33,919 bases of DNA, from the NCBI GenBank assembly GCA_030693295.1, contig JAUYAT010000011.1, positions 1-33,919 on the forward strand, in the 5' to 3' direction. Under the pieces are notes generated by a model. It ran no database searches. It was not told where the DNA came from and worked only from the letters and a program-made list of their open reading frames with translations. A program made the position numbers and the translations under genes. The number at the start of each line of letters is the position of its first letter. Positions within the stretch are counted from its first letter, which is position 1. Below, one piece after another: positions 22,302 to 29,833 of this stretch. The DNA is from a bacterium. Its GTDB lineage: Bacteria > Patescibacteriota > Patescibacteriia > Patescibacteriales > VMTK01.

Positions 22302-22335
22302 CCCCGTAGTTCCGCCATTGGCGGATACTTCGGGG
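22302..22335. repeat. Hairpin upstream of binding protein 1, containing TCCGCC-ATT-GGCGGA
   Basis: ccccgtagttccgcc (22302-22316) pairs with the complement ending cttcgggg at 22335, with two mismatches. The core tccgcc-att-ggcgga belongs to the same palindrome family as the elements inside livG. On the minus strand it sits in the leader just before the start codon, where it could limit translation or stabilise the mRNA. Confidence 0.65.
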
Positions 22336-22391: not shown

Positions 22392-23189
22392 TCAATTTCC
22401 CAAATACGCCTCCAGAACTCGGGGATTGTTTTTTATTTCCTCCGGCTTGCCTTGGGCGATTACCCTGCCTTTTTCCAAAACTACCACATCATCGGAAATC
22501 TTAAAAGCGAAATTCATATCATGCTCTATTAAAAGAATGGTTTCGCCTTTTTCTTTTAACACGATTAAAATCTCCTTGATTTTTTCCCGCAATCGCGGAG
22601 CCACTCCGGAAACCGGCTCATCCAGCATTAAAAAATTATGAGGATTTAAAATCGCTCTACTTAATTCAATTAATCTTTTTTGGCCATAGCTCAAATCTCG
22701 GGCTAAAACATTTTGAAATTTTGCTCCGCCCGAGGCGGATCCGCCTTGGGCGGACAACCCGACCAATTCCAGCATTTCTTGAATTTTTTCCTCAAACTTA
22801 TTTCTTTTATCCGCCGAAGTCCCGCGGTATTGCGGGACGAAGGCGGACAAAAATTTCGTGTCTTCATTATCAATCGCCAAAAGCAAATTTTCCCTTACTG
22901 TTAAATTATTAAATAATCTTGTCTGTTGGAACAACCGGGATATGCCAAGATTTGAAATATCTTCTATTGATTTATCAGTGATATCTTTGCCGTCTCCGCC
23001 CGAGGCGGAAAATATTATTTTGCCGGAATCAGACTTTAAAATTCCCGATACCAAATTAAAAATAGTGGTCTTGCCCGAGCCGTTCGGCCCGATTAAAGCC
23101 GTAATGGTTTTTTCTTTAATTTCAAAAGAGCAGTTGTCAACCGCCTTAATTCCCCCGAAAGATTTGTTTAAATTCTCTATTTTTAACAT
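22392..23189 (-). CDS. livG: Branched-chain amino acid ABC transporter ATPase LivG
   Basis: 265 residues. Walker A GPNGSGKTT (about 34-42), signature LSYGQ (166-170) and Walker B FLMLDEP (186-192) are intact. LSYGQKRLIELSRA and the C-terminal EHDMNFAFKISDDVVVLEKG are LivG-like. Three unusual segments interrupt the usual sequence: SASGG at 61-65, SAFVPQYRGTSAD at 115-127 and SAQGGSASGG at 146-155. All are encoded by GC-rich palindromes built on TCCGCC...GGCGGA, all read in the same frame. The canonical motifs lie between the inserts, so the protein may well remain functional. Confidence 0.92.
   Translation of the reverse strand: MLKIENLNKSFGGIKAVDNCSFEIKEKTITALIGPNGSGKTTIFNLVSGILKSDSGKIIFSASGGDGKDITDKSIEDISNLGISRLFQQTRLFNNLTVRENLLLAIDNEDTKFLSAFVPQYRGTSADKRNKFEEKIQEMLELVGLSAQGGSASGGAKFQNVLARDLSYGQKRLIELSRAILNPHNFLMLDEPVSGVAPRLREKIKEILIVLKEKGETILLIEHDMNFAFKISDDVVVLEKGRVIAQGKPEEIKNNPRVLEAYLGN
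22725..22754. repeat. Two tandem TCCGCC/GGCGGA palindromes inside livG
   Basis: tccgcc-cga-ggcgga (22725-22739) is followed at once by tccgcc-ttg-ggcgga (22740-22754). On the minus strand they encode SAQGG and SASGG. The perfect stems and the GC content contrast with the A/T-rich surroundings. Confidence 0.75.
22810..22847. repeat. Nested palindrome inside livG
   Basis: tccgcc (22810-22815) pairs with ggcgga (22842-22847). Inside, gtcccgc (22819-22825) pairs with gcgggac (22832-22838), separated from the outer stem by gaa on each side. It encodes SAFVPQYRGTSAD on the minus strand and shares its outer arms with the simpler palindromes in the same gene. Confidence 0.7.
22995..23009. repeat. 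TCCGCC/GGCGGA palindrome inside livG (5' copy)
   Basis: tccgcc-cga-ggcgga, identical to the copy at 22725-22739, encodes SASGG at residues 61-65 of LivG. It lies in the loop after the Walker A helix, a place where small insertions are often tolerated. Confidence 0.7.
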
Positions 23190-29800: not shown

Positions 29801-29833
29801 AAAACAATCCGCCCCGGGCGGATTGTTTTTTTG
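29801..29833. terminator. Bidirectional terminator between tRNA-Ala and HU
   Basis: aacaatccgcc (29803-29813) pairs with ggcggattgtt (29817-29827) around a 3-base loop, flanked by A residues on the left and seven T residues on the right. It can stop tRNA-Ala (plus) and HU (minus, stop at 29859). Confidence 0.88.

Follow-up and report, generated by a model that had tools for sequence, protein, structure and literature searches.

In-frame hairpin repeats of 15 and 30 bp in livG and other genes of a Parcubacteria genome, probable copies of a dispersed mobile-type element

Rickettsia palindromic elements (RPEs) are palindromic repeats of 105-146 bp that lie in frame in Rickettsia genes, and the example of gmk indicates that a host protein can tolerate such an element (PMC2229807). 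REPINs are mostly extragenic, show REP-to-REP distances that peak at 71 and 110 bp, and are associated with RAYTs, the REP-associated tyrosine transposases (PMC3116915). Hairpin elements of Allomyces have been reported without flanking duplications (PMC2800124). The repeats described here, which measure 15 or 30 bp, resemble the palindromic elements of Rickettsia and Wolbachia in being stem-loop palindromes that occur both between genes and in frame inside conserved genes, where they are tolerated. They are unlike RPEs in their far smaller length, in their occurrence in another bacterial phylum, and in a TN^NA target that is not duplicated; this comparison is drawn from descriptions. With REPINs they share an arrangement as two inverted short hairpins (loops NRA then TYN), compensatory changes, dispersal, and an abundance that varies between relatives. 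Unlike REPINs, their hairpins abut at zero spacer, carry no GTAG or CGTC tag at the hairpin end, lie largely within genes in the source genome (15 of 18 in ORFs), and have no cognate RAYT whose flanks bear matching hairpins. The target-site duplication of MITEs is likewise absent (0 of 118 doublets). The hairpin elements of mitochondria (RHE in sponges; those of Allomyces) are also short, dispersed, and occasionally found in genes; they differ in being mitochondrial and mostly intergenic or located in rRNA. The very small mobile repeats of cyanobacteria, reportedly ~20-30 nt in length, are alike in size and likewise contain conserved hairpins; they are attributed to Elhai et al. (2008), a paper cited in PMC3733652. 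RPEs are thus the nearest system in behavior and REPINs the nearest in architecture, and the repeats belong fully to neither. A literature search of limited coverage, in which absence is no proof of novelty, returned no report of such elements for Patescibacteria. In-frame mobile palindromes are known; we rate the ultra-short, genome-wide form as new.

The window is the whole stretch of DNA that was analysed (33,919 nt; contig JAUYAT010000011.1, assembly GCA_030693295.1), and its source genome is a Parcubacteria assembly of 1.06 Mb in 62 contigs that is ~90% complete. The features considered are as follows.

22392..23189, minus strand: gene for a livG-like ABC transporter ATPase of 265 aa (ORF; Pfam ABC_tran and BCA_ABC_TP_C; 1g9x/1gaj).
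22725..22754, minus strand: 30-bp doublet, TCCGCCCAAGGCGGA/TCCGCCTCGGGCGGA on the coding strand, encoding SAQGGSASGG (10-aa insertion by orthologue alignment).
22995..23009, minus strand: 15-bp single hairpin TCCGCCTCGGGCGGA, encoding SASGG (5-aa insertion at ATATTT^GAC by orthologue alignment).
22810..22847, minus strand: 38-bp nested hairpin which, with one base more, encodes SAFVPQYRGTSAD (decayed form in the orthologue of genome G011).
22311..22325, no strand assigned: related hairpin TCCGCCATTGGCGGA nested in CCCCGTAGT..TACTTCGGGG (pattern match).
29808..29822, no strand assigned: AAAACAATCCGCCCCGGGCGGATTGTTTTTTT, terminator-like hairpin following a tRNA-like sequence (pattern match).

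The LivG protein matches ABC_tran and BCA_ABC_TP_C in Pfam, its closest solved relative is the LivG-type ATPase of M. jannaschii (1g9x/1gaj), and the NCBIfam LivG model matches it with a score under the cut-off of that model. Judged by Pfam and the solved homologue, the identity of the gene is clear. An AlphaFold2 model has the fold of an ABC ATPase and places SAQGGSASGG and SASGG both in predicted loops, with pLDDT <50 at residues 149-155 in the region of SAQGGSASGG. The initial annotation had described four palindromic units in frame inside livG, lying in segments not expected in LivG and leaving the ABC-transporter motifs untouched. All four segments are present at these positions, in frame, and encode the peptides listed above, and the motifs are undamaged despite them. 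Their number needs revision. The abutting 15-bp hairpins at 22725-22739 and 22740-22754 are a single 30-bp element, leaving three events in livG. The hairpin at 22311..22325 immediately precedes the ATG at which a substrate-binding protein gene probably starts, and that at 29808..29822 has the same consensus as the livG hairpins and a different role.

Orthologues of LivG with 60-70% identity were available from G011 (L033) and G001 (L034), as well as from four records of Parcubacteria type (L062-L065). Aligned with these, SAQGGSASGG is a clean insertion of 10 codons, GTC GGG TTG [30 bp] GCA AAA TTT, at a site where G011 reads ATT ACA ATG GAA AAT TTT without an insert. Similarly, SASGG is a clean insertion of five codons, ATA TTT [15 bp] GAC GGC, compared with ATT TTT AAT AAC in an orthologue. 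The same two gaps open opposite these segments in the solved M. jannaschii homologue 1g9x. A search for the same residues encoded by non-palindromic DNA found them absent from all six orthologues and from 1g9x, so that the placement of the SAxGG segments outside the expected LivG sequence, as lineage-specific additions, holds. The SAQGGSASGG site is a permissive loop, since different inserts, unrelated to the doublet, are present there in G001 and L063. The 38-bp unit, laid out as TCCGCC-TTC-GTCCCGC-AATACC-GCGGGAC-TTC-GGCGGA, fared differently, and exact boundaries were obtained for the 10-aa and 5-aa inserts only. G011 has TCCTCCTTCATTTCGCTTCGCGAAACTTCGGCGGA at the corresponding position, with a right end identical to that of 22810-22847; at two pairs of its inner stem T:A replaces C:G, both sides having changed so that pairing is maintained. 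The other orthologues have ~9-11 codons there, ~2-4 fewer than the 13 of the source livG. A clean insertion at 22810-22847 was rejected on the decayed form in G011, a distant relative, and the near-equal length in other orthologues, and the nested unit is an older or composite feature.

The hairpins of livG belong to a family dispersed throughout the source genome. When up to one mismatch is allowed, the window contains 6 matches to TCCGCCNNNGGCGGA, whereas dinucleotide-shuffled sequence gives 0.12 on average. Genome-wide, the exact sequence occurs 41 times and its backwards reading 0 times. The unit is therefore not, as had been proposed at the outset, one repeatedly used in a single gene, and the RPE precedent raised with that proposal is right in kind while the elements of the source genome are far shorter and genome-wide. 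Within the source-genome stretches, perfect tandem 15-bp hairpins number 19 at spacer 0 and 0-1 at each of spacers 1-7, which makes the 30-bp doublet the unit, with 22725-22754 as one example. The consensus of the doublet is 5'-TCCGCC-NRA-GGCGGA/TCCGCC-TYN-GGCGGA-3' (slash at the junction), with arms of 6 bp, loops of 3 nt, and zero spacer. Read from outside, the loops of both units are NRA, their third base being A in 91%, and the doublet therefore consists of a single unit repeated in inverted orientation. TCCGCC is the usual sequence of one arm, and the partner can be TCAGCC, CCAGCC, CCCGCC, TGCGCC, or CGCGCT, each with its own complement. The arms covary: among 152 pattern matches in 7 genome sets, the three outer arm pairs, which the search pattern left free, are paired in 90% as compared to 64% with shuffled partners, with T:A, C:G, G:C, and A:T all seen. 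Rfam returned no family above threshold for the hairpins. TCCGCCAGCTGGCGGA, a form of 16 bp and hence one that would disrupt a reading frame, occurs five times (G000:C8:1343, C13:10750, C27:4761, C37:33338, and C37:44962).

Of 18 doublets analysed in the source genome, 15 fall in frame in ORFs of ≥120 aa and the remainder lie outside, counts that cover copies found by the pattern, in the stretches around them, and are not an unbiased repeat search. Besides LivG, the products include RpoB, AlaRS, ProRS, MetRS, and a Cdc48-like ATPase, named by searches, and IleRS, SecA, glycosyltransferases, a small heat-shock protein, and a protein of gas-vesicle type, named by sequence reading. When RpoB, Cdc48, and ProRS are aligned to solved structures, a gap opens opposite the insert; the alignments for MetRS and AlaRS are less clean. 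Relative to G001, of the same family, the small heat-shock protein shows an exact 10-aa gap and the Cdc48-like ATPase a 10-11-aa gap, while alignment of the copies in DnaJ and an S1 protein to G001 revealed no gap. At several sites orthologues bear other inserts, and some of these loops are therefore simply length-variable. Low-complexity inserts of the KHKNTKTQKH type are present in the G001 livG (L034), L267, and L273 at loops that bear doublets in the source genome, pointing to sites that may be permissive in both. The majority of copies in G142, G208, and G051 lie outside ORFs. As to reading phase, 31 of 49 coding copies are read as SAxGG against 42% predicted from TN^NA sites (p=0.003), and 11 of 14 in the source genome alone (p=0.02); the p-values are approximate, as the counts are of related sequences. 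We read this bias as likely selection on the protein.

Other repeats were also encountered. A second in-frame palindromic repeat, TCCCCCCTAACCCCCCTTGCGAAGGGGGGC, is shared with identical DNA by the genes of three unrelated proteins, in which it specifies SPLTPLAKGG (L108, L111, and L112; G000:C61, C13, and C14). The repeat CTTCGCC(R)RAGCTTCAGCGAGGCGAGC encodes LRQSFSEAS and is found at five places within long reading frames; another in-frame repeat, CCTTCGCCAAGGCT.., encodes SFAKATE. These two occur in a minus-strand frame of 162 aa in the window and at L101, L102, and L111. A/T-rich 7-bp tandem arrays of the AAAATTC / GAAAATC type cross proteins in frame (KIQNSKFKIQNS) and often flank doublets (L111, L116, and G066 loci such as L236 and L230). 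Several intergenic doublets are found inside CGTAGTT..CAATGGATA, a tRNA D-arm-like sequence often next to a tRNA gene (L305, L332, L309, L318, L336, and L109:8058).

The sequences flanking the doublets reveal the target. Among 236 flanks of 118 doublets, T occupies position -2 in 85%, with A in 2% and G in 3%, and this holds for both sides after folding; 81% have T or C at position -1. The left flanking dinucleotide equals the right one in 0 of the 118 doublets. From the T bias and the flanking dinucleotides that are never equal, it follows that the target is TN^NA and that it is not duplicated. At 4 of 4 empty sites (two in livG, one each in the heat-shock protein and Cdc48), T at -2 is already present in the orthologue. 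Extension of the stem by the flanks was rejected, as -1 and +1 pair no more often than when shuffled. The 24-bp core pattern of the doublet is present in 130 of 241 related genomes, others of the same class among them, all of the compared genomes being metagenome or draft assemblies, and the backwards control mostly gives 0-2. The highest count, 42 copies, is in G066, where ~12 near-identical copies of one variant lie inside a longer repeat and suggest a recent amplification. Alignment of the G066 copy sites to ~250 kb of G047 was uninformative. A doublet of G208 is missing from the matching intergenic site of the congeneric G142.

The two SAxGG segments of livG are thus quite probably copies of an ultra-short dispersed repeat of mobile type, whose main form is the 30-bp doublet. 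According to this explanation, the doublet would insert exactly at TN^NA and leave the target unduplicated. An insertion in a gene would add 5 or 10 small, flexible residues, and the length of 15 or 30 bp, together with the lack of stops, would keep the frame. Selection at the protein level would then retain copies in permissive loops, mostly in the Ser-Ala-x-Gly-Gly phase. The element may have moved as a single-stranded hairpin that serves as substrate of an enzyme acting in trans. Because the hairpins are short, the target is T-rich, and duplication is lacking, the closest analogy for such movement is the HUH chemistry of the IS200/RAYT type, to which we give somewhat less than an even chance. 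We infer that the segments are translated and tolerated, not useful.

Movement by the RAYT of the source genome, with the repeats as its REP or REPIN elements, is an unlikely alternative. The genome does encode one true RAYT (NF047646, 88 bits, cut-off 80), doublets of inverted hairpins look like REPINs (PMC3116915), and among 241 genomes RAYT-family matches are commoner in those with at least three doublets (odds ratio 4.8, p=5e-7). However, this association is gone at ≥8 doublets within the class, seven genomes with ≥8 doublets have no NF047646 RAYT match, and G142, G175, G208, and G223 contain doublets and no detectable Y1 transposase. Conversely, close homologues of the RAYT occur in G004, G011, G014, and G025, genomes without doublets, and no doublet was found at any of 30 loci of RAYT homologues. 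Other hairpins, of the AGTCTCC..GGGACT type, flank both the RAYT gene and its close homologues, and the flank consensus of the doublets is devoid of the GTAG/CGTC tag. After these tests of flanks, homologues, and presence or absence in 241 genomes, a RAYT/REPIN origin is weak, and the RAYT of the source genome is probably not the mover. The RAYT gene itself (G000:C8:30316-30867; L157) has its own REP hairpins, CGGCACAGTCTCCTCGCAAGGGACTGTGCCG, with covarying versions in the homologues of relatives.

Slightly less likely again is a functional RNA or DNA hairpin (a terminator, an mRNA stabilizer, or a replication or recombination site) that is held by selection and preserves the frame incidentally. 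Strong folding, computed for the stable double hairpins of livG, and covarying arms would fit such a role, as would some intergenic copies of the same core that resemble terminators (29808 in the window; the flanks of C37:24808 and C38:682). Yet the majority of source-genome copies are within genes, their positions are not conserved among orthologues, and the SAxGG phase bias is unexpected for a pure nucleic-acid signal. The form of a Rho-independent terminator, a GC hairpin followed by a T-run, is seen at 29808; the livG copies have no T-run on the coding strand, on which a terminator role was ruled out, and give one antisense match. Improbable, too, is a local origin, with immobile hairpins formed in place by template switching or slippage. 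Many G066 copies do lie in or adjoining the A/T-rich 7-bp arrays, but the same 30-bp design recurs in unrelated genes of one genome, the core is shared by more than half of the relatives compared, and G066 holds its near-identical variant copies. Hardly credible is a bypass of the hairpins by ribosomes that would leave them absent from the protein, as for the byp elements of Magnusiomyces mitochondria (cited in PMC6649704): stable double hairpins in essential genes would suit it, but all elements are stop-free multiples of 3 that make bypass unnecessary, and the phase bias implies selection on the encoded peptide.

A mobile-type repeat thus remains the preferred reading. Tentatively, the doublets may represent an undescribed class of double-hairpin mobile elements of ~30 bp, among the smallest known, that move in Paceibacteria/Parcubacteria at TN^NA and, being stop-free, 15n in length, and frame-neutral, steadily supply essential proteins with flexible loops. 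Bacteria with streamlined genomes and a dependence on hosts would be expected to rid themselves of junk DNA, but in this genome tiny repeats sit in RNA polymerase, tRNA synthetases, SecA, and a transporter with the frame unbroken. This would be a second case, independent of Rickettsia, of mobile DNA creating protein segments. The minimal unit, the clear target motif, and the many pairs of occupied and empty sites would make the movement and the tolerance of coding palindromes testable. For annotators, SAxGG-type loops in these proteins would be insertion scars, not conserved domains.
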